Positions 3,862 through 62,484 of a stretch of 64,000 nucleotides of DNA are shown in pieces. Both the position numbers and the translations under genes were made by a program. Every line of letters starts with the position of its first letter. Positions within the stretch are counted from its first letter, which is position 1. The notes under the pieces are model-generated. The model was given only the letters and a program-made list of their open reading frames with translations, did no database searches and was not told the origin of the DNA. The stretch comes from an uncultured Kordiimonas sp. (GTDB taxonomy: Bacteria > Pseudomonadota > Alphaproteobacteria > Sphingomonadales > Kordiimonadaceae). The stretch is taken from the NCBI GenBank assembly GCA_947492375.1, contig CANLMI010000001.1, forward strand, positions 992,001 to 1,056,000, written 5' to 3'.

Positions 3862-3862
3862 A

Positions 3863-9850: not shown

Positions 9851-9885
9851 AAAAAAAGCCTCGCCATTTTCAGCGAAGCTTTTTT
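9851..9885. terminator. Bidirectional rho-independent terminator
   Basis: AAAAAGCCTCGC and GCGAAGCTTTTT form a stem with one mismatch around a short AT-rich loop, flanked by A- and T-runs. It lies between the PAS gene and tRNA-Pro and could serve both. Confidence 0.75.
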
Positions 9886-9915
9886 CATATCTCTTTGTAA
9901 ATAAAGAGTTTTAAA

Positions 9916-9992: not shown

Positions 9993-10122
9993 ACAAGATA
10001 TTAATATGATTATATATCATATTAGCCGTGAGGTGTGGGCTTTAAAGTTGGCGGACTATAGCCGCCCTTATTTTCAAGTGCAACAGGAAAGCCAAAAAAC
10101 TATTTCACCGTTTTCTATTAAA

Positions 10123-43253: not shown

Positions 43254-44363
43254 TCACCCAAAGAGGTCATTTTCAAGAAAATTCTTAGGCAATTGCTTTG
43301 TTGGTTTACGAAAGGCTTTCATACTTAAATGTTTTAATAACATGAAAAATGGCATTCGCATCCAATGCCCGCGTATATAAAGAAACAACTTGGCCATTGA
43401 GGAAAAAGCATTGCTACTCATCTGCGTTTTAACCAGCCAGAATATGACTTTAGATGAGAGCGGGATTTGAACGCCTGTTAATAAAGCGAACGCCTTCAAT
43501 AAGTCATTTGCTTTTGAATGATCAAAATATTCAGCTAGTATTTGAAGAGCCATAAATAAAGGTTTCTCTGCCCCTATGTCCCTTGCGCGCGCTAAAAGAT
43601 GAATTATTTCTTTTTGTGTCAAATCATCAAACAGATAATAAATTTCAATTAAACTTCTGGCTGGCGTATCCAATTCACCATCATAGAATGCATGATAGGC
43701 TGCATGCAAAAATCGATCTGTGGGCGCCAGCACACGAATCTGGCGGCCCTCTATTTTGACAGCGGCCTCTATCATTTTTTCATGCGCCAACTCTATTCTC
43801 GCCGTTTTAGGCGTTAGCCGGTGATGAACATCAATCAATGTGCGCCTGCGCTGGTGCCGCATGGGGGGAAGTTCGTGCATCCATTTGCGGTAATAAGCTT
43901 GATCATAATCATTATCAACCGTCTCATCGCCTTGCCAACCGGCCATTATCAGAGCCTTCTCAACCTGTGACAACTCTCCATCAGCAACCATAATATCCAG
44001 ATCACTAACTCTTCTTCCCTGCCCTGCTCTGTGCCCTGCTATCACATACGCTCCGCCTTTCAGCAAGGTCGGCTGAATATTATAATGAGCAAGTGCGCGT
44101 TCAACACGGTCGCTTTCAAACATAAGCATACGTTGATCATAGGCAGCGCGGATCCAGGCGTTGTCAAACTTTATAACTAAAGCATCGGCATCGGCACAAA
44201 CGGGCTTAATGGAGCTGATATCCTCCTTATGCATGGAATGGCTATATGCGACCTGAGCCAGAATATGTTCACGGTCGGCATACTCGACAAATTCATACAG
44301 TTCCTGCGGGTTTGGTGGCAACGCCTTAAGCCCAACTGCTATTTTCAACCAGTTATGCTTCAT
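43254..44363 (-). CDS. Nucleotidyltransferase family protein of the HPr-rel-A cassette
   Basis: A 369-residue protein of the NTP_transf_5 type. The core is LLKGGAYVIAG followed by GRRVSDLDIMV, the G-x-x-SDxD pattern that places two metal-binding aspartates, with a third acidic strand in TLIDVHHRL. Such proteins occur beside HprK-related kinase A and PqqD-like genes near exosortase loci. Its start overlaps the kinase by four bases. It might add a nucleotide to a protein or small molecule; the target is unknown. Confidence 0.8.
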   Translation of the reverse strand: MKHNWLKIAVGLKALPPNPQELYEFVEYADREHILAQVAYSHSMHKEDISSIKPVCADADALVIKFDNAWIRAAYDQRMLMFESDRVERALAHYNIQPTLLKGGAYVIAGHRAGQGRRVSDLDIMVADGELSQVEKALIMAGWQGDETVDNDYDQAYYRKWMHELPPMRHQRRRTLIDVHHRLTPKTARIELAHEKMIEAAVKIEGRQIRVLAPTDRFLHAAYHAFYDGELDTPARSLIEIYYLFDDLTQKEIIHLLARARDIGAEKPLFMALQILAEYFDHSKANDLLKAFALLTGVQIPLSSKVIFWLVKTQMSSNAFSSMAKLFLYIRGHWMRMPFFMLLKHLSMKAFRKPTKQLPKNFLENDLFG

Positions 44364-45265
44364 AAAACGGTGCCTTCAGCTATCGTCCTAAACAAGCTTA
44401 AAGCGTCAGCACTTGAGCCATACGTTACTTCATAGGCTTGAGCCTGTTTTGCTATATGGTTTACAGCCCTGAAGGCATCTTTTCCTATGATCTGGTAATT
44501 TGTTGAACTTGCGATTAACCGCATTACCGTATCGGCACTAGCAACCTTGCTAATCGCTGCTACTGCCCCTTTTTCAAATTTAGGGAATATAATCAGCCTT
44601 GGCACAGCAGTTTCATATGCTCGGGCTATATCATCGGAGCGGGCGCGCCGATACGCGATATCCCCTTTTGGTCCGTCCTTAATGACTGCGCTTATCCATT
44701 CATCACCAGCAACCTCTCTAATGACATCAATCGATGCATTCTTTAACGATACTGGGCGCGGGTATGGTAATAAAGTATGATCATTTAATTCAATGATACC
44801 AAATTCATCCGAGAGAAGGCGAAAACCTTCTTGCATCAAGAGCGCGGTCAAGGTGCTTTTACCGCCACCCGAGGCAGCAGAAATAATCACCCCGCCTTTA
44901 TCATTAGCAACAGCCCCAGCATGCAAAATTAATCGATTATATGTCTTAAGAGCGACTGAAATATTTAAGCCCATCTCAAACGCTAAAGCGCCCATAGAAG
45001 CAGGCAAAGGCACAGCAGGGAATTGAAAGCCCGGATCAGGAATAATCTGCTTTTTCATCAAATCACGCAGTAAATTGGGAGGGCGTACATCTAAAAACTG
45101 ATCATGTAATTGATGATCAAACTTTACAAATCTATAATCCCTGTAGACATCATGAAGATGTACACCAACAGACGCACAAGAAGATTTAAGCCGGGCAGAA
45201 AAGTCACCAATTGATAAAACAAGCCGCCCTTGGCCAAGATATTTATCAATGTCACTTTTAAGCAT
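44360..45265 (-). CDS. HprK-related kinase A
   Basis: A 301-residue P-loop protein resembling the kinase domain of HPr kinase/phosphorylase. Walker A is SAASGGGKSTLTALL and the second acidic motif is LLSDEFGII. There is no HPr gene in the cassette, so the phosphoryl acceptor is probably something else. The gene overlaps the PqqD-like gene by eight bases and the nucleotidyltransferase by four, so the products should be made together. Confidence 0.87.
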   Translation of the reverse strand: MLKSDIDKYLGQGRLVLSIGDFSARLKSSCASVGVHLHDVYRDYRFVKFDHQLHDQFLDVRPPNLLRDLMKKQIIPDPGFQFPAVPLPASMGALAFEMGLNISVALKTYNRLILHAGAVANDKGGVIISAASGGGKSTLTALLMQEGFRLLSDEFGIIELNDHTLLPYPRPVSLKNASIDVIREVAGDEWISAVIKDGPKGDIAYRRARSDDIARAYETAVPRLIIFPKFEKGAVAAISKVASADTVMRLIASSTNYQIIGKDAFRAVNHIAKQAQAYEVTYGSSADALSLFRTIAEGTVL

Positions 45266-45578
45266 TGCTGAACTTTACTTTGTCAGATGGCCTTATAAAG
45301 CCCGCGATATCCAATTCCTGTATTGTTTGCCTAATGAGTGACAAGGGGCAGTCTTCAATATCAAAATCTAGACCTATTCGGACATGCTCCGCGATTGCCT
45401 CGGCGTCCAGCGGCGTATCAAACAATAGTTTCAACACCTCATAGGACAGGAAATTTAATAAATGCGTTTCACCAGACAAGGTGTGATAGACATACCAAGC
45501 CTCTTCGTGTGGCTCGATTACACAACATGCTTTATCAGCACACCAGACGGTATCTTGTTGAGACGGCCCTGCGAGCAT
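45258..45578 (-). CDS. PqqD-like peptide chaperone, HPr-rel-A system
   Basis: A 106-residue winged-helix PqqD-type protein. Typical features are an N-terminal beta part with TVWCADKACCVIEP and the helical core LLNFLSYEVLKLLFD, ending IQELDIAGFIRPSD. PqqD proteins bind a precursor peptide and hand it to a modifying enzyme. No PQQ genes or radical SAM enzyme are nearby; the kinase and nucleotidyltransferase take that place. It starts five bases after the Asp-rich protein gene. Confidence 0.85.
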   Translation of the reverse strand: MLAGPSQQDTVWCADKACCVIEPHEEAWYVYHTLSGETHLLNFLSYEVLKLLFDTPLDAEAIAEHVRIGLDFDIEDCPLSLIRQTIQELDIAGFIRPSDKVKFSNA

Positions 45579-45583
45579 CAGGC

Positions 45584-46297
45584 CTAAGACTGATTAACAT
45601 AATCAAGGATTGAAACCAGACAGGAAACCCCCGGAAAGCCACTATTCGCCCCCTGATCCGCAAACCGGGCCGCCAAAACCAAATATAAGCCCGTTGCGCC
45701 AGAAACATTAAACTCGCCAGAAGGTGTTACAAACCTGCCTGGCTCGAATGTTGTATTACCGGAAAAAGAAAATAAAGCATATTGGCATGCCAAGCGTTCT
45801 TCCCGGCGGCGCCTTCTTTCCCGGCGACGCCTTTCACGAGGACTTAAGCCATCAAGGTTTGCGTCATCATCATCATCCCGATCATCATCGTCGTCGTCCT
45901 GATCATCATCGTCGTCAAATTCATCATCGTCATCATCGACAGGGCAACCTGGCGGTCTAAATTGATCAGGAACAGTGCCATCTGAAAAACTATATTGCGC
46001 ACGACGTTGAATTCGGTTGATACGCCCTTGTGTCAATCTTCCGTTTCCAAGATTGACACGGTCAGTAACCCATGCCGCCCCTTCATCATTCACAAGAATG
46101 ATCAAGCCTGCAGGAATTGTAATTGTACAGTCAAGCGCAGAATGAGCAAATGACTGCGCTGAGGCACGCATGCTAAGCATCATTGGCATACCAGCAATAC
46201 CCAGTTGTAAAACACGGCGACGTTCCAACTGTCGGCGTTGATTATCCGACACCTTATCGCTTACAGGCTTACCAGTCTTTTGCGTATCATCAGCCAA
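45584..46297 (-). CDS. Export-signal protein with Asp-rich block, first gene of the HPr-rel-A cassette
   Basis: A 237-residue protein of no family I know. Residues 21-47 look like a twin-arginine signal (ERRRVLQLGIAG, then a hydrophobic stretch and an ASA-QS cleavage site). The mature part has an Asp-rich block at 121-145 (21 of 25 residues are Asp) followed by an Arg/Glu-rich stretch (about 153-168). It then ends in a hydrophobic, Gly-rich domain with two Cys (ACQY, SCLV). It lies five bases before the PqqD-like gene, so it may be that chaperone's substrate. A role is not established. The Asp run could bind Ca2+ or other cations. Confidence 0.6.
   Translation of the reverse strand: MADDTQKTGKPVSDKVSDNQRRQLERRRVLQLGIAGMPMMLSMRASAQSFAHSALDCTITIPAGLIILVNDEGAAWVTDRVNLGNGRLTQGRINRIQRRAQYSFSDGTVPDQFRPPGCPVDDDDDEFDDDDDQDDDDDDRDDDDDANLDGLSPRERRRRERRRRREERLACQYALFSFSGNTTFEPGRFVTPSGEFNVSGATGLYLVLAARFADQGANSGFPGVSCLVSILDYVNQS
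45863..45937 (-). repeat. Trinucleotide (GAT/GAC) tract encoding the Asp block
   Basis: A run of GAT and GAC codons, seen on the + strand as ATC/GTC triplets, with single breaks at Glu-Phe, Gln and Arg. Its length may vary between strains without changing the frame. It makes a His-rich reading frame on the other strand, which is a shadow. Confidence 0.85.
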
Positions 46298-46542: not shown

Positions 46543-47889
<1,347 letters not shown>

Positions 47890-47985
47890 GCCACATAAAC
47901 AACCCAGAAATTGCGAGTATAAAGAATTTTATTATATCCCCATTACTAAAGTGTTATGTTTGAGTGTAATAAATTTGTAGCTTAT

Positions 47986-48048
47986 CTGTCATATTCGTCA
48001 CACTGACGTCATATAACAGCATTACTAATAACGATGTTACTATGACAG
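47986..48048 (+). promoter_or_regulatory. Candidate Pho-box region upstream of pstS
   Basis: CTGTCAT (47986), GTCAC (47997) and GTCAT (48008) lie at spacings of 9-11 bases, with an inverted TGACAG at 48043-48048. This partly matches the TGTCA direct repeats of PhoB sites and sits 40-100 bases before pstS. Spacing is not perfect. Confidence 0.4.
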
Positions 48049-48086
48049 CTTTTGACATTTAGATGTTCCATTATAGGAGGCTCCAT

Positions 48087-49166: not shown

Positions 49167-49207
49167 GCAGACCGCTCTTCAGTTGAAGAGCTCTAGGAGC
49201 GAAAAAA

Positions 49208-49897
49208 TTGAAAACCCAAATCCTTTTGATCGAAGATGATGTAAGCATTACAGAACTGGTTCGCTACAATCTAGAAAAAGCTGATTTCACGATTAACACT
49301 GCTAAGGACGGTGAAGAAGGGTTGATTTTAGCGACTGACCAAACCCCTGATGTCATCCTTCTTGACTGGATGTTACCCAATTTGTCCGGGCTCGAAATAT
49401 GCAGGCGCCTGCGCAGAAACAACAAAACAGCGAATGTTCCGATCATCATGTTAACAGCACGCGCTGACGAACCTGACCGGGTTCGAGGCCTTGAAACGGG
49501 TGCTGATGATTATGTCACTAAACCGTTTTCACCAAAAGAGTTGATCGCACGTATTCATGCCGTGCTCAGGCGTGTTCGCCCTGCCCTTGCTGCGGAATGC
49601 CTGACATTCGAGGATATTACCCTTGATAACGTTGCCCACCGGGTGAGCCGCGGGGAAAACCCAATTCACCTTGGCCCAACAGAATACCGCCTCCTTCGCC
49701 ATTTTATTGAAAACCCTGGCCGCGTCTTCTCGCGTGAACAACTGTTGGACGCTGTGTGGGGACATGACATTTATGTCGAAGCACGTACCGTTGATGTTCA
49801 TATCCGGCGGCTAAGAAAAGCAATGAACGAATTCGGTGACCCTGATTATATCCGCACGGTTCGATCAGCGGGATATGCGCTTGATAAAAAACGTTAA
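49208..49897 (+). CDS. phoB: Phosphate regulon response regulator PhoB
   Basis: A 229-residue OmpR/PhoB-type regulator. The receiver domain has DD at 10-11, phospho-acceptor Asp53 (LLDWMLP), and the Lys in YVTKPF. The winged helix ends with EARTVDVHIRRLRKAM and IRTVRSAGYAL. The start is TTG with AGGAG upstream. Its stop overlaps that of the XrtA amidotransferase gene in TTAA. It is partner to PhoR. Confidence 0.93.
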   Translation: MKTQILLIEDDVSITELVRYNLEKADFTINTAKDGEEGLILATDQTPDVILLDWMLPNLSGLEICRRLRRNNKTANVPIIMLTARADEPDRVRGLETGADDYVTKPFSPKELIARIHAVLRRVRPALAAECLTFEDITLDNVAHRVSRGENPIHLGPTEYRLLRHFIENPGRVFSREQLLDAVWGHDIYVEARTVDVHIRRLRKAMNEFGDPDYIRTVRSAGYALDKKR

Positions 49898-51804
49898 TCA
49901 GCGTTTTTCGTATATATCCGAGCAAGTGATCTTTTTAGAATTAAGAGAGACCACAATATCTGTTGATGGTCTCTTTTTTCATTCAAATGTTCAGACACCA
50001 TCGTTTGGATAGCAGCCATATCCAAAAGGCCAGTTTGCTCAAGAACAGCATTCCTGGAAAGGCTTAACAGTTCAGCCCTAAGATCTGTTTTCAAAAGCTT
50101 ATCTATCGGTAAGACAAAACCTTTTTTGGGTTGATCAAACAACTTTTCCAATCCAAAATCTGCTAAAATACTACGCAGCAGCGCTTTCCCTTTTCCTTTA
50201 TCAAAAAAACTATCGCTGTTATCTATAAGTGACTTTTCAACCAGTTCATGATCTAAAAATGGCACCCGCCCCTCAAGCGAACATGCCATACTCATACGAT
50301 CAAGTTTAGTCAGAATATCACCTGGCAAATATGTCAACAAATCGATCATCTGAATCCGCCTAAAAGCATCTCTGTCTTCTACTTTATCAACAATCGCATC
50401 AAATAGTTTCACAGGGTGGTAGCCCTTCAATGCCCTTTTCATTTTCTGCGAATGTAATTGCAAACGATCACGGTCAGGGCATTTACTAACACTATTAAAA
50501 TATGCCTCCGCTTCGCTTTTAGCCAAGCTTTCAAATGTAGATTTAGCCCGCAGAAATCTGGGCCACCGATCGAGTTTGGGATAAATATATGCAAAAGCAC
50601 CAAACAACGGGCGCCTTAACCAAAGAGGTAAAAGCCTGCGCACTTTCTCTTCAAAGAGATGCATTTTATACCGGCGATACCCACCGAACAATTCATCAGC
50701 ACCATCACCAGACAAAGAAACTGTCACCTCTTCACGCGCTAATTTACTGACATAATAGGTTGGTACTGCGGAATGGTCTGCAAACGGTTCGCCAAAGTGA
50801 ACGGTAAGAAGATCAAGAATATCGCCATCAAGATTATCGATTGATAAAATTCGGTGATCAAGCTCCAAGTGTTTTGCAATAGCATGCGCTTGATCACTCT
50901 CGTCATATTGAGGAATATTCGAACCTATGGTGCTTGCCTTCACTGGCAAATGACTATGCTTTGCAAGCATGCTTGTAATAATCGAAGAATCGATACCACC
51001 AGATAAAAATGACCCAAGCGGCACATCAGCGATCATTCGCTTTAAAACCGACTTTTCTATATCATCAGCGAGCCAGTCTTCATGTGGCTTCACAGTATGC
51101 TCGTTTACAATCTTATGCGGATTCCAATAGCATTTTTTCTGGTATTTTTTCGACGCAGCATCAAAAAACATCATATGCCCCGGTAGCAATTTATGAACAC
51201 CAACTATAATCGTTTTGGGGTCCGGCACGTACCCTAACGCCAAATAATCCTCAAGTGCATCAACACGGATATCCCGCTTAATCCCCTGATGGCATAATAT
51301 GGCCGAAAATTCAGACGCAAAAACTAATTCACGCGCACCGCCTTCACCAATTTCAGCGTAATATAATGGTTTAATACCAAGCCGGTCCCGCACTGCAAAA
51401 AGGCATTTATCCACCTTATCCCATACCGCAAAGGCAAACATACCGTTTAAGCGTTCTACGCATGCATGTTGCCATTTAATATATGCGTATAATAACACCT
51501 CGGTATCAGACTGCGTTTGAAAACTACACCCTAACGTTTCCAATTCTTCTCTAAGCGCACGATGATTATAAATTTCGCCATTAAAGACAATTGCATATCG
51601 ACCGCTTTGATCTGACATAGGTTGTTGACCTGCATCGATATCGATAACCGATAACCTTCTGTGCCCTAATGATGCATAATCATCGTCATAAAAACCTTCA
51701 CCGTCCGGCCCCCGGTGCTGCATGGCATCTGCCATGGCTTTAACGGTGTGATGGCTATCCGCACTCACACCAGCAAAATTTACAATCCCCGCAATACCGC
51801 ACAT
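49894..51804 (-). CDS. XrtA/PEP-CTERM-associated asparagine synthase-like amidotransferase
   Basis: A 636-residue AsnB-type enzyme. The N-terminal glutaminase begins MCGIAGIVNF with the Cys2 nucleophile; the synthetase half has the PP-loop SFLSGGIDSS and SGDGADELFGGYRRY. The paralogue group in exosortase A loci is thought to amidate or modify exopolysaccharide sugars or a protein. The start overlaps the exosortase stop (TGATG). It is the last gene of the XrtA run. Confidence 0.9.
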   Translation of the reverse strand: MCGIAGIVNFAGVSADSHHTVKAMADAMQHRGPDGEGFYDDDYASLGHRRLSVIDIDAGQQPMSDQSGRYAIVFNGEIYNHRALREELETLGCSFQTQSDTEVLLYAYIKWQHACVERLNGMFAFAVWDKVDKCLFAVRDRLGIKPLYYAEIGEGGARELVFASEFSAILCHQGIKRDIRVDALEDYLALGYVPDPKTIIVGVHKLLPGHMMFFDAASKKYQKKCYWNPHKIVNEHTVKPHEDWLADDIEKSVLKRMIADVPLGSFLSGGIDSSIITSMLAKHSHLPVKASTIGSNIPQYDESDQAHAIAKHLELDHRILSIDNLDGDILDLLTVHFGEPFADHSAVPTYYVSKLAREEVTVSLSGDGADELFGGYRRYKMHLFEEKVRRLLPLWLRRPLFGAFAYIYPKLDRWPRFLRAKSTFESLAKSEAEAYFNSVSKCPDRDRLQLHSQKMKRALKGYHPVKLFDAIVDKVEDRDAFRRIQMIDLLTYLPGDILTKLDRMSMACSLEGRVPFLDHELVEKSLIDNSDSFFDKGKGKALLRSILADFGLEKLFDQPKKGFVLPIDKLLKTDLRAELLSLSRNAVLEQTGLLDMAAIQTMVSEHLNEKRDHQQILWSLLILKRSLARIYTKNAD

Positions 51805-53294
51805 CAGTCGCTCCCCTCTTGATGCTTAATATCCAAAGATTGAATATACTCGTTCAGTATAGCGCGGGCATTATCGATATTATCGTTAACTCTTGTTGCA
51901 ATAACAATGATAGAAGCCGGCGCTGCCCCCGCCTGTAAACGAGAGAGCGCACTATATACTTTTACCTGCCAATCAACCGTTGCTAACCACTGGTCACCAA
52001 TTTGATAACTATAAAAAACAAGCAATCGCTCATCGCCGTGCCATAATAATTTCTCGGTAAAATCAGTATTATTGATCGTGTGCAGTTTTGAAGTACCAAT
52101 CGGCAGCCGCTGCCATCCATCGGTGTCAAATGTATCATAATATCTTAGCAGGTTTTTATCACCAATCTGATCATCATATCCCCCTGCAAACGCAAAAATA
52201 AAATCAGCACCACGCCTCAAGGTGACAGACTGCTCATGATCCAAATCATAAAATTTAGGCGCATAATGTAAGGCCGCATTTTTAAGAACACGATACTCAC
52301 AATCACGGCAATCCAGTGCTGTTATTTTCAATGCCTTTACACGATGACTTGACTGCCCCATCACAAACATAGTTGCAAACAAGGGTAATAAAACCGCCAT
52401 TGTAGCAACTATAACCATAAAGCCAGTATTAGGCTTTTTAACAGCCTTTGGAGGCGCTTTTAAACCAGTGTTACCTTGTGTCGTTTCAACATCGGAAAAA
52501 CGATAGGCAACGATGATCAGGATAATCAAAACAACCGATAAAAAGCCCCAACCATAAACAATATGGTCAACGTCTTTTGCAAACGATTGATCCGTACTCT
52601 CGGCTATTAACAGGATCGTTAAAACACGAATAATATTCGCGAAAACAGGAACAATCATCGAGGCGGCAATAATACCAATACGGCGGTATAAATTCTGAAA
52701 AACAAGATGGCTGAGTAAAATACCTGTCACTAAACTGGTAAAGAAAAACCGCACGCCTGCACATGCCTGCGCTACCTCATAGAGGCCACTTGATAAAGTG
52801 ATCAACACCCCCTCAGCCTGATATTCAACGCCTAACAAACCTAGTAAGGAAATAACGACTTCTGCGGTCAATACCTGTAAGGGAATTACAATCGATTGCC
52901 CAAAAGGAACCATTAAAAACAGAAACAATGCGGGAAATAAGATAGCCCGATAAAACTGCCGCCCCAAAGCCGTTATAAACAGCCCCTGAATTGCAGCTAT
53001 CAAAGCGATATGTTCAAATAACCGAACCTGAGCAGCGTGGCCAACTGTCCACAGACATGCTGCTAAAACAATCACACCAATACCTAAAAAACTAATCTCT
53101 TTTGGTATAGCCAAAAGTGTCTCACGCCGGGCCCAAATCAAACCAAACGAAATTAACGGAACAAATAGACCATGTGAAAATGTATCAACTGTCCAGATGA
53201 TATGAAAAAGATGGTTAGCCGTATCAAACCATGCAACTCCAAGGGCAATAAATCCAGCAACTAGCAATAAAAGATTTATAGCTGGCCTTTCCAT
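51804..53294 (-). CDS. xrtA: Exosortase A
   Basis: A polytopic membrane cysteine protease-transpeptidase that cleaves PEP-CTERM sorting signals. About eight helices are followed by a C-terminal EpsI domain (about 300 to the end). The proposed catalytic Cys lies in AQACAGVRF (Cys179 counted from the upstream GTG), the Arg in NIIRV (224) and the His in DHIVYGW (245). The ATG at 53294 overlaps the previous stop (TGATG), and an in-frame GTG lies one codon earlier. Substrates are not encoded nearby. Confidence 0.93.
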   Translation of the reverse strand: MERPAINLLLLVAGFIALGVAWFDTANHLFHIIWTVDTFSHGLFVPLISFGLIWARRETLLAIPKEISFLGIGVIVLAACLWTVGHAAQVRLFEHIALIAAIQGLFITALGRQFYRAILFPALFLFLMVPFGQSIVIPLQVLTAEVVISLLGLLGVEYQAEGVLITLSSGLYEVAQACAGVRFFFTSLVTGILLSHLVFQNLYRRIGIIAASMIVPVFANIIRVLTILLIAESTDQSFAKDVDHIVYGWGFLSVVLIILIIVAYRFSDVETTQGNTGLKAPPKAVKKPNTGFMVIVATMAVLLPLFATMFVMGQSSHRVKALKITALDCRDCEYRVLKNAALHYAPKFYDLDHEQSVTLRRGADFIFAFAGGYDDQIGDKNLLRYYDTFDTDGWQRLPIGTSKLHTINNTDFTEKLLWHGDERLLVFYSYQIGDQWLATVDWQVKVYSALSRLQAGAAPASIIVIATRVNDNIDNARAILNEYIQSLDIKHQEGSD

Positions 53295-54556
53295 CACGTA
53301 TCATTTTCCAAAATTGCTACAATTGTTTTATCAAGTTTAGCAAGCGCACTATCCCAAGTGAAATTCGCTTCGATAAATTGCCTTGCGCTCTCGCCAATTT
53401 CTTCGCGCCGATTAGTATCGCTCAATAGCGAAATCACACAATCAGTAAAATCATCCGCCGTATCTGCAATCAGGATATTCTTATCCCCCTCAGCATCAAT
53501 CCCTTCGTTTGCAAGAGAGGTTGCGACGACGGCCTTTGCCATAGCCATTCCCTCTAACACTTTATTCTGAATTCCTCGGGCCGTCCTAAGTGGTGCAATT
53601 ATAACATCGGCCGCTGCAATTTCCCGGGCCATATCGTCAACATACCCCTGAACCTCAATACTGTTATGTGCACCAAGTGCCTTTACTGATGAAGCGACAG
53701 GCCCACCCGCAATTCTAAATATTATATCTTTTTTAGCGCTAGTTTTTATCTGCGGCCATATATTTGCAGCAAACCATAAAACAGCCTCTATATTTGGGCG
53801 ATAATCCATAGCGCCTGTAAAAAGAATAACAGCTTTTTTCTGCTCTCGCTCCGCTCCATATATTGGCGCACGTATTGGCGCATATATTTCAGGGTTAAAC
53901 TGATTTAAATTTACACCATTTTTGAAGCTACATACCTTACTCTCAAGGCGCTTATCTGTTAACTGATTAAATAGAGTTGCTTCTGCATCACTGACAAAAA
54001 ATGTTTGATGCGCACTTTCTGCTGCCTTGCTTTCATACTGAAACAAACGAGTAGCTTCCCGCCGATAAATCCAGGAAAGTGGGGCTTTACTGCGCTCCGC
54101 ATAATCAGACCATTTTGCAGAATCAACATCAACCATATCGAGCACAATTGGTATATTCTTGCCAGAATTTGCGCTATTGATTAGTTGTGGTGTAAATTTC
54201 ATCATTGCGCCCGAAAACACATAAATAAAGTCGATATTTTCCTGCTCCAATACTGCATTTACATACGCTTGTAGCCTTGTTTTTGGATAGGCAGCTAGAG
54301 ATAGTGGCTCCCCGCTTATAAAGCCCTTCAAAGCAGAAAGTTTTTGCCCGAATTTTGTTATCTTTGCAAAATAACTTGAAGCAACTTTTGTACGCAGAAA
54401 TCCGCAGTATTGTTCATCAGCAGGGTCATCCAGAAAGCACCCAAGATGAACTTTGTGGCTCTTCAACAAATGCTCCAGAACATGCCATGACCTAATCTTG
54501 TCACCCTTGTTTGGCGGATAAGGAATTCGGTGGGCCAGAAACAAAATATTTGCCAT
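53294..54556 (-). CDS. XrtA/PEP-CTERM system glycosyltransferase (TIGR03087-like)
   Basis: A 420-residue GT-B glycosyltransferase. The N terminus ILFLAHRIPYPPNKGDKIRS is typical of the XrtA-associated group, and the C-terminal donor domain has PLRTARGIQNKVLEGMAMAK, with the conserved E of the GT4 signature. The ATG at 54556, five bases after the upstream stop and preceded by GGGG, is chosen over a longer frame that would run into the FemAB gene. It should add a sugar to the exopolysaccharide. Confidence 0.9.
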   Translation of the reverse strand: MANILFLAHRIPYPPNKGDKIRSWHVLEHLLKSHKVHLGCFLDDPADEQYCGFLRTKVASSYFAKITKFGQKLSALKGFISGEPLSLAAYPKTRLQAYVNAVLEQENIDFIYVFSGAMMKFTPQLINSANSGKNIPIVLDMVDVDSAKWSDYAERSKAPLSWIYRREATRLFQYESKAAESAHQTFFVSDAEATLFNQLTDKRLESKVCSFKNGVNLNQFNPEIYAPIRAPIYGAEREQKKAVILFTGAMDYRPNIEAVLWFAANIWPQIKTSAKKDIIFRIAGGPVASSVKALGAHNSIEVQGYVDDMAREIAAADVIIAPLRTARGIQNKVLEGMAMAKAVVATSLANEGIDAEGDKNILIADTADDFTDCVISLLSDTNRREEIGESARQFIEANFTWDSALAKLDKTIVAILENDT

Positions 54557-54561
54557 TATTT

Positions 54562-55605
54562 CTACCCCAAATGCCGCGCTATATGAGGCCCCACAGTATT
54601 TACAAACCTTAAGGGCAGCTTTTTCCAAACACTACTAAGAAAAGCATATTTTCCGCTTTCTTGAGAACGATCAGGTATGGTAACGCCGTTCAAAAGGCGG
54701 TATTCATACGCAAGCTCCATAGGCTGAAAACCCCAGTTCTTTTTAAATTTATAAGGGCCACTGCCAATTTTTGAACGGCCAAAGTCAAACCTACTTTTAC
54801 CACGCTCGATTGCCCGTGCCATTGTGTGCCAATACATAAAATCATGGGCACCCAAGGACCTGTTTTCTATAGTAGACCCTGCATAATAAGGTAACACACT
54901 GTCCCGGCCGTAAAAATTCAGCAGGCTTGCAACCGGGGCCCCGCCTCTATCACTAACAATCAGAATTTCTGCATCGCTTTCAAATACTTCCATCATACTC
55001 TTAAACAATATTTTCGGAAACACCGGCGTTCCAAGTCGGTGGACACTTTGTGCATAAAGCCTGTAAAATACATCAATATCCCGTGTTGCCCTGAGGGAAA
55101 GACCAGCGGACAAAGCCTTCCTTAAAACAGCCCTTTGTTTACGCGGTATCTCAAGCATACGTTCTTCAGGGTTGGCTACAATTTCTTTGATAAAAGTAGC
55201 AGACTTACTTTCTGCAACTTGCCACCCTACTTCCCTTATTCTGTGTAAATTTTTACTACGATACTCGATTACATCTATGCCGGCGTCTACAGCAATTTTT
55301 TCTGCTTCTTTGTCCAGCAACCTATAAGCTTCATCCGTATCAGCTAATGGGCCGCCATAAACTGCAAACATCGATGATATAATTGCTTTCCCGAACATTG
55401 AGCTTCGTCTGATTGTCAGTGGTAAAATACCAATAATGTCCCCTTTGTTTTCCGCAATCAGATAAACGCTGCTATGCCCAGCACCCTTTCCTACAACAGC
55501 ACGCCAATCATATTTGTGAAAAAATGTAGCGTCCTGATGTACCCCCACATAAGCATCCCAGACAGCACGGTCATTATCGCTTGCATGACGAACAGTAACA
55601 GTCAT
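54562..55605 (-). CDS. XrtA-associated FemAB-like protein
   Basis: A 347-residue protein of the FemAB/GNAT-like group seen in XrtA loci. GNAT fold features include YLIAENKGDIIGILPLTI and the closing FDFGRSKIGSGPYKFKKNWG. FemX-type enzymes transfer amino acids to peptidoglycan; here the acceptor may be an exopolysaccharide unit. It overlaps the deacetylase gene by four bases. Confidence 0.88.
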   Translation of the reverse strand: MTVTVRHASDNDRAVWDAYVGVHQDATFFHKYDWRAVVGKGAGHSSVYLIAENKGDIIGILPLTIRRSSMFGKAIISSMFAVYGGPLADTDEAYRLLDKEAEKIAVDAGIDVIEYRSKNLHRIREVGWQVAESKSATFIKEIVANPEERMLEIPRKQRAVLRKALSAGLSLRATRDIDVFYRLYAQSVHRLGTPVFPKILFKSMMEVFESDAEILIVSDRGGAPVASLLNFYGRDSVLPYYAGSTIENRSLGAHDFMYWHTMARAIERGKSRFDFGRSKIGSGPYKFKKNWGFQPMELAYEYRLLNGVTIPDRSQESGKYAFLSSVWKKLPLRFVNTVGPHIARHLG

Positions 55606-56525
55606 AGCTGCCTCTTCGCATGCTCAAGAATGGGCCGATAGATGACATCATACATAGCTCCCCACTCATGAGCCTTCAACAACCTAGATACTTTGTGCCG
55701 CATCCCTCTTTGTCCAACATGATGACGGAAACTGGATTTCATCGATACAGTATTCAAGCGAGGTTGATCCGGGTCATATTCCCAGGGGTGTGTGTAAAAA
55801 ATCCCCGGTGTTTGAATTTGTTTTACGCCGCGTTTAAACAAACCATCCGCCAGCCAATAAGGCATAAGGCGAAAATAGCCACCACCAGAGGCCGGAAGGT
55901 TCCTGCCCCCCAAGCGGCAAACAGTCATCGGAATTTCAATAATGTCAGAAGTTTTGATAGGGTAAAAGGGCCGCTTCGGAGCAGTTGGCATACCATAATG
56001 ATCATGCCGTATAGGATATAAGCTTGATGAATATTTAAAGCCTAGCGCCACTAGCTCTTCATATACCCACCAGCAATCGCTGTTTAAGGAAAAACTGGGG
56101 GCGCGGTATCCAACAACCTCTACACCAGTAACGTCTTCCAAGCGTGTTTTAGCTTCTTTCGTATTTTTACAGAAAATATCACGGGTTAATGTAAACAATC
56201 GCTGATGATTAAGCCCGTGGCACGCCAGTTCATGACCTGCGGCAGTGATTTTTCTGACAAGATCAGGATTTGTTTTTGCGACATAGCCCAGCGTAAAAAA
56301 GGTCGCTTTTATTCCAGCACGTTCAAGCATATCAAGAAGCATCGACAGTTGATACTCAACACGGCTTTCATATGAAGGCCAATCTTTTTCAGCAACAATA
56401 TCCTCATAAGCGCCAACCTGAAACCATTCCTCCACATCAATCGTAAAGGCATGCTGGTTGCCAAAAGAGATATCCTGTGAGGTTTCCTGAAATTGATCAG
56501 TTACATATGCCTGTTCATTTATCAT
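55602..56525 (-). CDS. XrtA system polysaccharide deacetylase
   Basis: A 307-residue NodB-type deacetylase. Motif 1 is FTIDVEEWF with the catalytic Asp, motif 2 is HELACHGLNHQ with the zinc His pair, and YRAPSFSLN follows. The ATG at 56525 is preferred because GAGG lies six bases before it. It overlaps the ATPase gene by 11 bases. It probably removes acetyl groups from the exopolysaccharide. Confidence 0.91.
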   Translation of the reverse strand: MINEQAYVTDQFQETSQDISFGNQHAFTIDVEEWFQVGAYEDIVAEKDWPSYESRVEYQLSMLLDMLERAGIKATFFTLGYVAKTNPDLVRKITAAGHELACHGLNHQRLFTLTRDIFCKNTKEAKTRLEDVTGVEVVGYRAPSFSLNSDCWWVYEELVALGFKYSSSLYPIRHDHYGMPTAPKRPFYPIKTSDIIEIPMTVCRLGGRNLPASGGGYFRLMPYWLADGLFKRGVKQIQTPGIFYTHPWEYDPDQPRLNTVSMKSSFRHHVGQRGMRHKVSRLLKAHEWGAMYDVIYRPILEHAKRQL

Positions 56526-57510
56526 CTGGCGCCTCATCGCGCACATTTTTATGAACAAGTTTCGTCATCAACTCTGTCAATTGACCGATCATTTGGTGTT
56601 GCTGCGATATGATAGTCTCAAGTTGATCAACCCGCCCACCACTGTTTGCTTCAGTCGCAATCGATCCTGATTTTTGCTGTTTGGGTGTTTCAACCAACTC
56701 GGTGTCGCTGCTCATATCAGCGATAACAGCGCGCACCGTTTCCCCTGATATTTCATGTAGTTCCTCCAGAGCGCCAAAAAGCATAACACGCGAACATAAA
56801 GTGTTTAATTTTCTTGGTACACCTGCCGCATAATCATAAATCGCAGCGACCGCATCAATTGTAAAGCCGGGATCACCCTGCCAGCCAACCAGCGATAATC
56901 TATGTTCAAGATAATCTGCTAACTCTTCCTTTTCCATTGGTCCCAGATGGTGCGTGGCGATGACACGTTGGCGAAGTTGTTCCAGTTCAGGTGCACCAAA
57001 AATCATATCGCGGAATTCAGGTTGGCCAACTAAAAAGCTTTGTACTAAAGCATTATCGCCTTCCTGAAAGTTAGATAACATGCGTAATTCTTCAAGCGCC
57101 TGAATTGAAAGGTTTTGCGCTTCATCCACAATAAGAAGAACACGTTTTCCATTTTTATAATTTTCACGTAAAAACCGCTCAATCCGCATTAAAAGCTGGC
57201 CTTTGTCACCTTCCGCATTCAACCCAAATGCTGAAGCCACCCCCCGTAATAATCCAATACCACCCAACTGGGTACTCACCAGCATAGCTGCAACATATTC
57301 ATCGTGGTCTAATGTGCTGAATAAATGCCGTAAAAGCGTTGTTTTACCTGTGCCAATATCGCCAGTAACAACAATAAATCCTTCGCCCTGATGCAGGCCA
57401 TAGGTAAGGTACGCCATAGCTTTTTTGTGCGTGCGCGAACTGAAATAAAATTTAGGATCAGGCGTAAGCTGAAACGGCCGCGCGCTTAAATTATAAAATT
57501 TCTCATACAT
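56515..57510 (-). CDS. XrtA-associated ATPase (TIGR03015-like)
   Basis: A 331-residue AAA protein of the ExeA-like type. It begins MYEKFYNLSARPFQLTPDP, with Walker A GDIGTGKTTL, Walker B LLIVDEAQN and a sensor R-rich part LRQRVIATHHLGPM. The C terminus is a predicted coiled coil. This family is found in nearly every XrtA locus and probably supplies energy or assembly control at the envelope. Confidence 0.91.
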   Translation of the reverse strand: MYEKFYNLSARPFQLTPDPKFYFSSRTHKKAMAYLTYGLHQGEGFIVVTGDIGTGKTTLLRHLFSTLDHDEYVAAMLVSTQLGGIGLLRGVASAFGLNAEGDKGQLLMRIERFLRENYKNGKRVLLIVDEAQNLSIQALEELRMLSNFQEGDNALVQSFLVGQPEFRDMIFGAPELEQLRQRVIATHHLGPMEKEELADYLEHRLSLVGWQGDPGFTIDAVAAIYDYAAGVPRKLNTLCSRVMLFGALEELHEISGETVRAVIADMSSDTELVETPKQQKSGSIATEANSGGRVDQLETIISQQHQMIGQLTELMTKLVHKNVRDEAPDDK

Positions 57511-57516
57511 AGCGCG

Positions 57517-59028
57517 TTAAAAAGTTCCTCTGATAAAAGCACTAATCGCATTCTCGCGGATATCCTGACCAGCTTCATTGGATAACCGATCAGAATAATT
57601 ATAGGCCACAGAAACATTAAGATGACGTGAAAGCCTTCGTGTCCAGGAAACCGAGCCAAGAATGAAATTATCAACCCGCTCGGAGTTTTCAAACTCGGTA
57701 CGCCGATAACTGGCTGCAATCCTTAGTGTGGTTTTACGGTCAAGGTTACGATCATACCCTACAGAGCCACCAAATGTACGGGCTGTACCTGTATCATTAT
57801 CAAATGTTCGCCATTCAGCATCACCTGTCACAAAAAATGTCGTGCGCTTTCTAAACCATTCAAGGCGAACACTACCAATTCGCCTACGGAAATCTACATC
57901 TGAGAGCGTAAAACTTGGATCAATATTATTAAGGGTTCGCCCATTACCGTCAACAATACCAAACTGGTTATTAAAATTAAACGTATCTAAATTATCATTT
58001 AATATCAGACTATTAGTTGATAGCTCGTCAGTATAATTCGCTTCAATATTTATACGTTTACTAAGTCGGTGAAACAGGTTTCCTGAAAAAGTTGTACGCC
58101 CACCGTCCCGGCCCGACCGACCGGTTAATGTTAAACGATCACTTGGGTTCCAAAGAAATCCAGCATTCCAGAAGAAGCCATCGTTATCCAGCAGAAAAAT
58201 ATTGAAATCGTTATTGGAAATACCAGCAGACCCGACCAAGGCAAATTCACGTGTTAGATAGTAAGTAAGGTCAACACCAGCACGGTCATCACGGAAACTA
58301 CCAGCTTCATCAATCGATCGGTTAACCCGGCGCGCATTTGCAAAGGCTTGCCATCTGATATTACGAAACCGTTCACCAGAATCAACAAGGGCTGTTACTT
58401 CGTGCGAAACCGAGTCAGAAAAAAATGTTGTTAGGCTATCATCATCCAAATCATCGGCTGGGCTAAAGGTCAATCCAAATTCATACTCAAGTGACCAATT
58501 AGCAAGGTTTTGAAAACGCCCCTGAAACAACGCCTCACCAGTATATGTTTGAACAACCTGTCTGTTGCCGCTCCGGTTTGCTATATTACCGGAAAACCCA
58601 TCTTCACGGTTCAGAAATGTTTCTTGAACTGTTGCGCGGCCAGACAGGAAAAAGCGATCCCGGATAACCTCTGCATTTGCAAGGCCGAATAAATTATGAC
58701 GAACGTCGGTATCCCCGTCGCTTAAAAACCAAAGAAAATCGGCAGCATAATCAAGCGACCCTTCAAAACGCTTACCCTTTCCGCGCAGGTTAATTCCCGG
58801 CGAGGCTCTCAGCACGAGATCACTCGCCCGGTCATTTTCCTGTAAATTTACATTATCAGAAAATGTTGTCCCAACCTCGATACGCGGTTCAATTGCATAA
58901 TCCTGAAAATCCGTTGGCTCTTCGCTATTTCTTATCGCAGAAAATTGTGCAAACGCAGGAAATGTTGCCCCAATCACACCAACAAGAAGGTATGGTAAGT
59001 ATCTTTTTATGCGGGCTTTTGTTTGCAC
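57517..59028 (-). CDS. XrtA-associated outer membrane beta-barrel protein (TIGR03016-like)
   Basis: A protein of about 503 residues with a signal peptide (IKRYLPYLLVGVIGATFPAFA) and repeated beta-strand pairs typical of an outer-membrane barrel, ending in a terminal Phe (SAFIRGTF). Family segments include YAIEPRIEVGTTFSDNVNL and RASPGINL. The GTG at 59028 is preferred (AGG upstream, no overlap with the kinase); an ATG at 59052 is possible. It is probably the outer-membrane channel or anchor of the polysaccharide system. Confidence 0.8.
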   Translation of the reverse strand: MQTKARIKRYLPYLLVGVIGATFPAFAQFSAIRNSEEPTDFQDYAIEPRIEVGTTFSDNVNLQENDRASDLVLRASPGINLRGKGKRFEGSLDYAADFLWFLSDGDTDVRHNLFGLANAEVIRDRFFLSGRATVQETFLNREDGFSGNIANRSGNRQVVQTYTGEALFQGRFQNLANWSLEYEFGLTFSPADDLDDDSLTTFFSDSVSHEVTALVDSGERFRNIRWQAFANARRVNRSIDEAGSFRDDRAGVDLTYYLTREFALVGSAGISNNDFNIFLLDNDGFFWNAGFLWNPSDRLTLTGRSGRDGGRTTFSGNLFHRLSKRINIEANYTDELSTNSLILNDNLDTFNFNNQFGIVDGNGRTLNNIDPSFTLSDVDFRRRIGSVRLEWFRKRTTFFVTGDAEWRTFDNDTGTARTFGGSVGYDRNLDRKTTLRIAASYRRTEFENSERVDNFILGSVSWTRRLSRHLNVSVAYNYSDRLSNEAGQDIRENAISAFIRGTF

Positions 59029-59032
59029 TCGC

Positions 59033-60139
59033 TTACCTGCCACCGTATCCATAATAGGATGCAAATTTCTTATTGCTACCGCTGTAATGCGTCTTGTTGA
59101 GAACAAGGTTAATATTCTCACAGGCACTGATCATATTAAGGCTTTCCTTAATTTGGGGTTCAGTGGTTTTTTCAGCTTCGATCACAAATACTGTTTGCCC
59201 CATATATAACGCCAAAACAGAAGCAGCAGAACTGGCGAGCACTGGTGGGCTATCAAAAATAATGATCCGGTCTTTGTAGCGAGTTGAGAGCTCATTCACC
59301 ATTTTTTCCATACGGTCACTGGCTAAAAGCTCTGTAGTGAGGTTATGTTGACGCCCTGCTGGCAACAAAACAAGGTTAGGGATACTTGTTCTAACTAAAC
59401 ATTCACCCAGATCGACATCCTTGTCAGCAACAGAATCCATCAGGCCACGCCCGCCCGCAACACCCAGCCTATTCAGCACCTCTGGTTTTGAAAAGTCCGC
59501 ATCAACAAGAAGAACCGTAACGTCCTGTTCAGTTGCAATCGATAGTGCCAGATTGATCGCAGAAAATGTCTTTCCTTCACCGGGGCTAGAACTCGTCACA
59601 AGAACAATATTTTTATTCTTTTTGTTCTCATTCCCTTTTGCAAAAGCATTAAGGAGGATACTACGTTTAATAATTCTGAATTCTTCAGACATCAGGTTCG
59701 GCGGCATATCAGGGGTTATAAACCCTGCATCCCTAAGCGCAATTAAATCAATACCTTGGACTGTTGGCCTTTTTTCAACGGGCTTCGCTTTATTATTTTC
59801 TGTGATCGCCTCGTCTTTGTTTGCAACAGTCGTTTCTGATTCCAATACTGTTGCCTGTCTCTTTTGATGGCCTTGATCATGCTCTAGGCCTTGGCTTTGT
59901 TCAATTGGCCCTGTCTTTATTGGTTCTTCAACCTCAATTTTATCTTTGCCTACAACAACAGGCTTGGCAGCGCCGAGCCCCCGGAATGAAGATAAATCAG
60001 ATTGTTGCTCAGATGGCTCGACAGATAAGGCACTCGGGTCAGGCCTGTCAGACTTTTCATTTAAAGGTTTGGGCTTACTTAAATCTTCTGCCGCTCGTTC
60101 AAGCAACGAGGCTTTTTTTTGTTCAGGTTTATCAGTCAT
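59033..60139 (-). CDS. XrtA-associated tyrosine autokinase
   Basis: A 368-residue bacterial tyrosine kinase of the Wzc type, without fused membrane domain. The ATP site is SSSPGEGKTFSAINLALS, Walker A' is VLLVDADFSKPE, and Walker B is IIIFDSPPVL. The C terminus is short and Tyr-rich (SYYGYGGR), the usual autophosphorylation cluster. The N-terminal 130 residues are polar and low-complexity. The ATG at 60139 follows GGA. It partners the chain-length protein upstream. Confidence 0.92.
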   Translation of the reverse strand: MTDKPEQKKASLLERAAEDLSKPKPLNEKSDRPDPSALSVEPSEQQSDLSSFRGLGAAKPVVVGKDKIEVEEPIKTGPIEQSQGLEHDQGHQKRQATVLESETTVANKDEAITENNKAKPVEKRPTVQGIDLIALRDAGFITPDMPPNLMSEEFRIIKRSILLNAFAKGNENKKNKNIVLVTSSSPGEGKTFSAINLALSIATEQDVTVLLVDADFSKPEVLNRLGVAGGRGLMDSVADKDVDLGECLVRTSIPNLVLLPAGRQHNLTTELLASDRMEKMVNELSTRYKDRIIIFDSPPVLASSAASVLALYMGQTVFVIEAEKTTEPQIKESLNMISACENINLVLNKTHYSGSNKKFASYYGYGGR

Positions 60140-60152
60140 ACAATATTTCCAA

Positions 60153-61781
60153 TCATCCCAAACTCGGACCGCCAATAAAGTCAAAGGTCAAAAGCACTGC
60201 AAAGGCAACAAACAAAAGCGCGCTCATTGCTACAAAACCCAAGAGCTCTATGCTACGTCTTTTACCTTCAATATCACTCAAGGTTTTGGTCACATTCCCC
60301 AAAACAGGTAGATCAAATTGTGCTCTTAGTTGTTCAATTGTAATTATAACCGGGCGCAGTTGCGACATCATAAAAGATACCCCAATGCCCGCGATAATAC
60401 CGCCTAACAGGCTGCCAACCATATATAGTAACCGTGGAGGTCCACTTGGGCGAGACGGCCTTGTTGGCTCTTCTACAACATTAAGTGCAATAGCATCCCC
60501 AGAATTTTCAACACCGCGCCTGATTTCCAAATCCTGCTGCTGATTGACAAACTCATTATACTGCTGACGGATCGAATTATAATCCCTGCTTAATCTCTGC
60601 TCTTCGGCTTCAATTTCAGGAACACGCTTTGCTTTTTCTTCCATCTGAGCAATCAACAACGTCTGATCATCCCGGCGCTTTTCCAGTGCCGCAATATCTG
60701 TTTTCTTCGTAATTAATTCGAGGCTTAAGCTTTCATAAAGCTTGTTAGGCACTTCAATAGTAAGATTAGATTTCGATCCAGCTTCAGCCGTATTTTTTAA
60801 TTCTTCCTCTACAGCTTTTCTCTGCTCGTCATACTGAACTTTCAAGGTTGAAATTTGCCGTGTTACATTAACAACATCAGGGTGCTTGTCAGTATACCCC
60901 AGCGACTTATAATCATCATATCGTTTTTCAAGCTCTGCAATCCGCTCTTCAAGCGGATCTCGCGCGGAACTGTTACCACCGCTTCGAGCTGAAATTGGCT
61001 CACGCAATGTGGGGGGAACGCTGCTGCGTTGCTCATCAAGCGCATCTATAGTCGCATTCAGTTCTGAAATTGAATTTACTGTAACCTTTAAATTCGCACG
61101 GCTTTCCTCAAGCCGAGAGAGAAAACTGCCTTGCCCCCCTAAAAACTCGAGATTATCTTGCTTGAAGCTAGCATGCCTACGTTCAGATTCTTCAAGGCGC
61201 TTTTGATACTCTTCAACCCGTTCAGCGATAAACCCTTCGGCACTTGCGGTCTGTAACAGCCCTTCTTCCGAATTACGTTCCAGAAAATAAGACACGAGAT
61301 TAACAACGACCAACCGTGATACATCCGCACGTTCACGGTCAGATAACCTTGGTTCATCTATTTCAAACTGAATACGAAACAGGCCACCTTCGGGCGAGCT
61401 AACACGGATGTTACGACGCAAATAAGCAACCAATTCATCCTTCTCAACTTCAGTGGTCGCTAATTTCTCCAAGCTCAGGATACGCTGGATAATTTTCTCT
61501 AAGTTATTACGTGTAACAAGTGTGCGCCTTACCACATCTACCTGCCTTGTAACGTCAACATCAATTCCCAAGTTTCTAGCGATCGAAGGTAATAAAGTTT
61601 CGGCATCGACAAAGATACGTGCATACGATTGGTACTTATACGGCATTGATAAAATAATACCCCACCCAAGCGCACAAACAATCCATGTTGTTGCAAGCAT
61701 CCACCACCGTTTCCGCCATATTCCATAGGCAGCAAACGTTAAACGCTGGGTTAATTCATGTATGCCGAGAGAGGTTGCCAT
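60153..61781 (-). CDS. XrtA system chain-length determinant (Wzz-like)
   Basis: A 542-residue PCP-type protein. One helix near residues 25-48 (WWMLATTWIVCALGW) and two near the C terminus (PPRLLYMVGSLLGGIIAG; ALLFVAFAVLLTF) bracket a long periplasmic coiled-coil region. It probably sets the chain length of the exopolysaccharide and works with the autokinase, whose gene starts 13 bases after it. Confidence 0.9.
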   Translation of the reverse strand: MATSLGIHELTQRLTFAAYGIWRKRWWMLATTWIVCALGWGIILSMPYKYQSYARIFVDAETLLPSIARNLGIDVDVTRQVDVVRRTLVTRNNLEKIIQRILSLEKLATTEVEKDELVAYLRRNIRVSSPEGGLFRIQFEIDEPRLSDRERADVSRLVVVNLVSYFLERNSEEGLLQTASAEGFIAERVEEYQKRLEESERRHASFKQDNLEFLGGQGSFLSRLEESRANLKVTVNSISELNATIDALDEQRSSVPPTLREPISARSGGNSSARDPLEERIAELEKRYDDYKSLGYTDKHPDVVNVTRQISTLKVQYDEQRKAVEEELKNTAEAGSKSNLTIEVPNKLYESLSLELITKKTDIAALEKRRDDQTLLIAQMEEKAKRVPEIEAEEQRLSRDYNSIRQQYNEFVNQQQDLEIRRGVENSGDAIALNVVEEPTRPSRPSGPPRLLYMVGSLLGGIIAGIGVSFMMSQLRPVIITIEQLRAQFDLPVLGNVTKTLSDIEGKRRSIELLGFVAMSALLFVAFAVLLTFDFIGGPSLG

Positions 61782-61824
61782 TAACTTTTCACTATCACCA
61801 CTTCAACTAAGATACTTATATAAA

Positions 61825-62484
61825 TTAAAAAATACTCTCAGGAATGATGAGAACATCGCCGGGTAAAATTTTGACATTGGAACGAATGTCACCATCTTTG
61901 ATTAACGATTCAATGCGTAAAGAATATTCTTTCTGCTCACCGCCTTCAAACCGCACAAGATTAGCTCTGTCGCCTGCTGCAAATTCTGTTAGGCCCCCAA
62001 CATCAATCATAACATCAAGCAACGTCATATTTGCACGATATGCAATTGATTGCGGATTTGCAGCTTCACCAACAACACGAACCTGCTGTGAAAACGGACC
62101 AACGAAACCTCTAACAATTACAGTAACAATCGGTTGTTGTAAGTAATCAGAGAGTTTTTTTTCTATGTCACGCGCCAGCTGACTAGGTGTTTTTCCTGTC
62201 GCAGGCAAATCCTCAACAAGAGGCATCGAAAAACGACCATCTGGTCTTACAGTAATACCAAGCGATAGTTCAGGGTTTCTCCAAACAAAAATCTCCAGGT
62301 CATCACGCGGCCCAATCAGGTAATTTTCACCTGGCCCCTCCTCAGGCGGCACAAACGGTGCTGGGGGGAGCTCTGGATACCCTGACCCACAAGCGGCAAT
62401 AACCAGCGATATGATCGTAAGTGCTGATAACATTCTGGCTTTAGCACTTATAATCTGCACTGCCTGTCTCAACGAAAATTTCAT
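61825..62484 (-). CDS. XrtA system polysaccharide export lipoprotein
   Basis: A 219-residue Wza-type export protein. The lipobox is VIAAC with the modified Cys near residue 32. Then come a poly_export domain (NYLIGPRDDLEIFVWRNPEL, RPDGRFSMPLVEDL) and an SLBB-like repeat (VVGEAANPQSI). It forms the outer-membrane export route. GGAGG lies five bases before the ATG. The product acts with Wzz and the kinase. Confidence 0.92.
   Translation of the reverse strand: MKFSLRQAVQIISAKARMLSALTIISLVIAACGSGYPELPPAPFVPPEEGPGENYLIGPRDDLEIFVWRNPELSLGITVRPDGRFSMPLVEDLPATGKTPSQLARDIEKKLSDYLQQPIVTVIVRGFVGPFSQQVRVVGEAANPQSIAYRANMTLLDVMIDVGGLTEFAAGDRANLVRFEGGEQKEYSLRIESLIKDGDIRSNVKILPGDVLIIPESIF

Follow-up and report, generated by a model that had tools for sequence, protein, structure and literature searches.

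RESULTS

The cassette and its enzyme genes

The stretch analysed here (the window) comprises 64,000 nucleotides of a contig from an uncultured Kordiimonas sp. (GenBank assembly GCA_947492375.1, contig CANLMI010000001.1, positions 992,001 to 1,056,000 of the forward strand). In the open reading frame (ORF) calls of the window, four leftward genes, referred to as D, Q, K and N, span positions 46297–43254 (Table 1). Q, K and N encode a PqqD-family adapter, an HprK-related kinase and a nucleotidyltransferase, respectively, and D, the first gene, encodes a protein with a signal resembling those of twin-arginine translocation (Tat), which we propose as the substrate of the cassette. D and Q are separated by 5 bases, whereas Q and K overlap by 8 and K and N by 4, in exact agreement with the packing described in a previous sequence-only reading of the window. 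The family names given there to the three enzymes also hold, since Q, K and N each exceed curated cut-offs, and, as stated there, no radical S-adenosylmethionine (SAM) enzyme is found among the four genes. Homologous gene sets recur in dozens of genomes, showing that the cassette goes beyond chance and confirming that it is real.

By these cut-offs K and Q are members of the HPr-rel-A system of NCBIfam: the kinase and the adjacent PqqD-family chaperone score over TIGR04352 and TIGR04353, and the gene adjoining the kinase matches PF14907, while D is covered by no family. An NTP_transf_5 gene is, we assume, part of the HPr-rel-A definition. Residues G133, G135, K136, S137, D153 and E154 of K were invariant in 34 sequences, as were D121, D123 and D178 of N in 27 sequences; we take the P-loop and Asp-Glu residues of K and the Asp-x-Asp residues of N to be catalytic. 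A comparison with solved structures at E up to 1 gave no relative for Q, three HprK entries (E 0.27, 0.28 and 0.62) along with two exocyst entries for K, and two entries for N, both unrelated. One scan of bacterial genomes with an alignment as query found HPr-rel-A-type loci at at least 565 places, whereas a contig scan with the K sequence alone found no relative.

The arrangement behind K varies between loci. At L123 the order is K, a tetratricopeptide repeat (TPR)-sulfotransferase gene (L123:7756-9537) and N, and at L126 and L127 a TPR-sulfotransferase gene also follows K (L126:7858-9558, L127:7858-9558), with no N detected within the fetched stretch. The general statement that the sulfotransferase replaces N was rejected, as L123 has both; short loci such as L114 and L118 are uninformative on this point. 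At L124, K and N are separated by a methyltransferase-like gene.

Co-occurrence of D with the kinase

Relatives were collected from 196 genomes of the order to which the window belongs, 88 of which have K over the cut-off; together with G006 and G090, where K is just under it, these gave 90 loci, of which 82 have a D relative upstream. These 82 yielded 86 proteins, as four loci carry two copies; at L063 another gene intervenes between D and the cassette. The eight loci without D beside K (L004, L027, L077, L078, L079, L082, L084 and L085) come from genomes that all have D: at a separate place in six (G053, G035, G080, G097, G118 and G166), 4 kb upstream and beyond the short stretch first fetched in G171, and on another contig piece, at an assembly break, in G045. 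Cassettes without such a first gene, which the sequence-only reading had named as the observation that would speak against it, are thus seen locally in a single genus, in five genomes, all of which carry D elsewhere.

In a genome-wide search of the order with a 44-row D alignment, D was found in 88/88 K-positive genomes versus 1/108 others, and the sole D-positive genome among the latter was G090, whose K (197.7 bits) is 2.3 under the cut-off of 200. The local D of G006 (L089) was missed by this profile. Because the alignment was built from the same loci, the weight of this comparison rests on the genomes with an empty locus and on the 107 D-negative genomes. In a sample of the phylum, K was over the cut-off in 61/398 genomes, including 48 that do not belong to the order. 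A further D profile, made from 18 upstream proteins from outside the order, matched 37 of these 48 versus 0 of 328 other non-order genomes, and 19/30 of the K-positive ones when the 18 genomes that had given rows were left out. Its 11 misses comprise seven genomes with a second type of first gene described below (G477, G517, G214, G452, G499, G519 and G527), one cut at the contig end (G379), and G454, G552 and G210. D thus founds a large unnamed family of probably exported proteins, and genomes with one of these proteins and genomes with the cassette are nearly always the same.

D and Q also adjoin each other at six loci where they are separated from K or lie on the opposite strand (L147, L267, L269, L270, L271 and L272, the last being a second copy). 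In addition, eight genomes of genus g2 carry an extra D far off (L148–L155), with no K, Q or N match in the fetched stretch; at L148 and L150–L155 this copy adjoins a gene of the sigma-70 type that has a DUF6596 domain (7/7 scanned). At the named Sphingopyxis loci L219, L223 and L233, no D-profile match was found beside Q.

The D protein and its leader

The start codon of D is TTG, with AGGA nine bases upstream. The sequence-only reading did not recognise this gene, and indeed the window protein stays below every curated cut-off in Pfam and NCBIfam, as does the family (44 aligned members scanned, window included). A few of the 44 gave single weak library matches, one of them to a Tat-signal model at E 0.0023; TIGR01409, the Tat-signal model, matches just 1/44 at E 0.01 or better. 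The D proteins of the order vary from 116 to 298 residues in length. A structure model of window D had a mean predicted local distance difference test score (pLDDT) of 80.2, exceeding 90 over much of the mature domain, and a predicted template modelling score (pTM) of 0.68; at E 0.001 or better nothing in the PDB matched it, and 33 matches fell at E 2.1 to 9.4. The short relative at L217 was modelled poorly (pLDDT 67.2, pTM 0.48).

The Tat-like signal noted earlier is borne out: the leader of D has a twin-Arg motif, a hydrophobic stretch and an A-x-A site (ERRRVLQLGIAGMPMMLSMRASA-QS). Leu, Val or Ile occupies the second position after the last Arg of the run in 99% of D proteins, whereas among 28 other Tat-like picks, taken from related genomes, 86% have Phe there (28/30 loci yielded a pick, and at least two, L257 and L261, look wrong). 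The D leader also has Thr or Ser in 85/86 and a basic residue two places further in 78/86 proteins of the order. It is thereby set apart from other Tat signals, and at the level of sequence a variant Tat-like leader is a hallmark of D.

The Asp block

The count of 21 Asp in 25 residues reported earlier was reproduced for residues 121–145, where 21 is the maximum, encoded by a mixture of GAT and GAC codons. The emphasis put on it as the defining trait was misplaced. At least 10 Asp in any 25 residues were found in 18/86 D relatives (16/29 in the family of the window, 2/2 in another family and 0/55 in the rest), and a same-genus relative (L032), 72% identical to window D, has at most 4 Asp per 25. 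Asp-richness was therefore rejected as a hallmark of the D family. The block is modelled as a low-confidence loop within an otherwise confident domain and looks like an accessory element. An Arg/Glu-rich stretch after it (residues 154–168, positions 45794–45838) is modelled as a helix.

The C-terminal motif

The Cys and Ser of a C-terminal [ST]CxxS motif are present in 86/86 D proteins of the order. This figure is partly built in, because loose RR and C..S rules were used to choose the 72 seeds of the D profile (five picks, L006, L057, L058, L063 and L069, were excluded as seeds, being the wrong ORF). We therefore recounted, asking only for a Tat-like start in the upstream ORF. Outside the order, [ST]CxxS was found within the last 60 residues of 26/38 ORFs from 47 loci, as compared with 0.98 in shuffled tails, and in held-out named loci it was found in 20/39 ORFs from 51 loci, as compared with 0.62 (29 of 80 named loci were duplicates of earlier loci and were dropped). 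The recount retains plainly wrong ORFs, e.g. at L116, L128, L212, L229 and L235, and 1 of 25 matches to the broad pattern (L230) is spurious. Among the 51 named loci, the D profile matches upstream in 34, of which 28 have the C..S pair.

In five divergent relatives, aligned by eye, Ala replaces the motif Cys and the Ser is kept (L206 TALNSF, L216 TAIGSF, L236 TALSSF, L122 AAYTSI and L208 AAFASM). A second type of D occurs at L091, L093, L094, L108, L131, L133, L136, L191, L209, L224, L232 and L234; S-P-G-[YFW]-W after the CxxS is common to those at L093, L094, L133, L136, L191, L224 and L234. Taken together, the aligned sequences indicate that C-terminal [ST]-C-x-x-S is a hallmark of the D family, in which the Ser is mostly constant and the motif is absent from some lineages.

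Neighbouring genes

A phoR-like gene lies divergently upstream in 45/59 loci (L032–L090; by BLAST similarity to the window gene). In the window, phoR-, pstS- and phoB-like genes lie together at 46543–49897, with no pstC, pstA or pstB ORF between them, and the phoR-like protein has a Gly-Thr repeat at its end. In a search for signs of Pho regulation of D, the best match to a PHO-box consensus in the window was 9/14, equal to shuffles. Among 84 upstream stretches 20 scored 10–12, where shuffles gave about 11; of the 20, 13 were on the phoR-facing strand. A GPH-like gene is found near the cassette in 69/139 loci.

Next to the cassette, and outside it, lies an XrtA/exopolysaccharide locus, whose gene names beyond 49894–51804 are presumed from their translations. 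Within the order, 15 loci have a gene resembling the XrtA amidotransferase of the window close to the cassette, as do 14 loci from other orders. By NCBIfam, L126 has XrtA glycosyltransferases, and L128 has an XrtA amidotransferase that exceeds the cut-off. At L128, asparagine-synthase-like genes flank the cassette (2946-4988 and 9379-11298), only the second being over the XrtA amidotransferase cut-off. In many loci of the Sphingomonadaceae type, no gene resembling the XrtA set of the window was found within 7 kb.

Table 1. Features of the cassette and its surroundings (window positions)
Feature	Position	Strand	Basis or remark
D: Tat-like protein, 237 aa, proposed cassette substrate	45584..46297	-	homologue upstream in 82/90 loci
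Tat-like motif RRRVLQLG of D leader, residues 26-33	46199..46222	-	one Arg invariant, 86/86
Cys57 of D, first conserved Cys behind leader	46127..46129	-	86/86 in order
Asp block of D, residues 121-145, variable insert	45863..45937	-	21/25 Asp; pLDDT 51-60
Ser225-Cys226-Leu-Val-Ser229 of D, [ST]CxxS motif; Ser229 proposed modification site	45611..45625	-	
Q: PqqD-family adapter (TIGR04353), 106 aa	45258..45578	-	45.7 bits, cut-off 35
K: HprK-related kinase A (TIGR04352), 301 aa	44360..45265	-	242.3 bits, cut-off 200
P-loop SGGGKST of K, residues 132-138	44852..44872	-	translation and alignment of K
N: NTP_transf_5 nucleotidyltransferase (PF14907), 369 aa	43254..44363	-	129.4 bits, cut-off 31.2
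Divergent PhoR-like histidine kinase, conserved neighbour of D (context)	46543..47889	+	Pfam
XrtA/exopolysaccharide locus next door, outside cassette (context)	49894..62484	-	Pfam for 49894-51804

DISCUSSION

D as a candidate substrate of the cassette

According to published reports, HprK-like kinases from clusters that also encode a PqqD-like partner phosphorylate a Ser in the precursors of paeninodin-type peptides and of linear polyphosphorylated peptides (LPP), a Ser of the pseudomycoidin precursor is likewise phosphorylated by an HprK-like kinase, and the attachment of one or two hexoses to the phospho-Ser of pseudomycoidin is attributed to PsmN, whose annotation is that of a nucleotidyltransferase (PMC9266682, PMC8498205, PMC13381572). 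The HPr-rel-A cassette has the same parts as these phospho-peptide clusters together with a precursor of its own in which one Ser is mostly constant, which points to the same chemistry on a larger protein that would be exported by Tat. We thus consider it probable, at roughly 60%, that the cassette has D as its dedicated substrate protein, bound by Q, phosphorylated on Ser by K, decorated by N and exported through Tat. D would be a likely target of K because it co-occurs with the cassette and has one mostly constant Ser.

In the order of events that we propose, Q would bind D in the cytoplasm, probably at the conserved leader, and K would phosphorylate the Ser of the C-terminal [ST]-[C/A]-x-x-S (Ser229 in the window). 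N would then add a sugar or a nucleotide to the phosphate; in one lineage K is also followed by a sulfotransferase gene. The modified D would leave through Tat, and signal peptidase would cut off the leader, which may serve both as a Tat signal and as the site of PqqD binding. The gene family, its co-inheritance with the cassette, the conservation of leader and Ser and the enzyme motifs are read directly from the sequences; binding, phosphorylation, decoration and export of D, and the order of these steps, we infer by analogy. Because LppN was reported to be inactive in its heterologous host (PMC13381572), the role given to N is weakly founded.

Several other observations weigh against D as substrate. 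The mature domain of D is folded in the model, within whose last helix (residues 224–236) Ser229 sits, whereas the kinases of lasso and LPP systems act on peptides. The Cys-to-Ala relatives at L206, L208, L216 and L236 are weak profile matches (20–22 bits), the D-like proteins at L177, L184, L185, L121, L134, L135, L205 and L214 have no clear CxxS, and D of the second type carries CxxS just behind the leader instead of C-terminally. At L268, D has no Q detected beside it, and five genomes of genus g33 keep Q with K and N, which lie behind another gene (named MarR by Pfam in L078), with D alone elsewhere. The sequence-only reading had asked whether D homologues always sit next to the PqqD-like gene: they adjoin it in the six loci away from K and lie apart from it in the five g33 genomes. 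Its proposal that the first gene is the modified substrate stands in part, favoured by the co-occurrence, by D beside Q in those six loci and by the conserved Ser; its stress on Asp does not.

Alternative readings

D could instead be a partner of the enzymes, such as an exported scaffold or sensor, with the trio acting on an exopolysaccharide or a lipid-linked sugar of the XrtA locus. The XrtA-amidotransferase-like genes near the cassette, the NCBIfam-named XrtA genes of L126 and L128 and the confidently folded domain would all fit such a role. We nevertheless regard it as unlikely, since PqqD-like proteins are known as leader-binding adapters (PMC8498205), D and Q are neighbours at six loci away from K, the extra D of eight genomes (L148–L155) is what would be expected for several substrates served by one enzyme set, and many Sphingomonadaceae-type loci have no XrtA-like genes found within 7 kb. 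A more specific picture, in which D is a folded, Tat-exported primer or anchor of the XrtA exopolysaccharide that bears a phospho-sugar on Ser (sulfated in one lineage) and has a double-duty leader, is speculative and appears rather improbable to us.

Since Cys57 and Cys226 are each conserved in 86/86 proteins of the order, D might be modified at these Cys by a disulfide, a thioether or a thiol-linked group, with the kinase activating something else. This is improbable as well, because the five divergent relatives swap the second Cys for Ala and keep the Ser, and because HprK-like kinases of ribosomally synthesized and post-translationally modified peptide (RiPP) clusters target Ser. A purely genomic link, in which the genes were inherited together in one operon without being functionally tied, agrees with the conservation nearby of non-cassette genes (phoR-like and GPH-like) and is very hard to reconcile with the persistence of D in genomes where it is not beside K and with D profiles that are empty in 107/108 and 328/328 genomes without K over the cut-off.

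Relation to known systems and significance

Outside HPr-rel-A itself, the closest likeness is to LPP of Bacillota and to the paeninodin and pseudomycoidin clusters. LPP systems share a discrete recognition element, an HprK-like kinase and an NTP transferase, and their precursors, of 35–200 amino acids, were first found within capsular polysaccharide loci (PMC13381572). The LPP leader given there reads YxxPxVLxHQxIxFETxxS, whereas that of D is Tat-like, without this motif and with no Tyr. LPP also relies on a dedicated SpI peptidase that cuts the leader and on an MsbA-like transporter, whereas the cassette has neither gene, and neither was found among the four cassette genes and five neighbours, the part of the window scanned with models. 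Phosphorylation in LPP is on Ser3 of the core (PMC13381572), whereas the site proposed in D is near the C-terminus.

The paeninodin and pseudomycoidin systems share a PqqD-like B1 protein, an HprK-like kinase acting on a C-terminal Ser and a nucleotidyltransferase; sulfotransferase genes also occur in clusters of this type (PMC8498205), as they do after K in L123, L126 and L127. Lasso peptides have a macrolactam cyclase and a B2 protease, whereas the cassette is without either; the asparagine-synthase-like gene at 49894–51804 lies beyond phoR, pstS and phoB. D also differs from lasso precursors in its length and in having a folded domain in one confident model. With pyrroloquinoline quinone and other radical-SAM peptide systems the cassette shares the PqqD-family adapter, whereas its genes include no radical SAM enzyme.

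Our literature search, in which broad matches were judged by title and the start of the abstract and which left most subscription papers uncovered, found no paper on a D substrate family. What is new here is thus a candidate substrate family, D, and its CxxS motif for the HPr-rel-A system: a named modification system for which we found no described substrate gains a candidate family and a single residue within it. If this assignment is true, HprK-type phospho-peptide chemistry would reach beyond short peptides to entire proteins exported by Tat, and it would give a handle on the frequent placement of such cassettes in or near exopolysaccharide loci.

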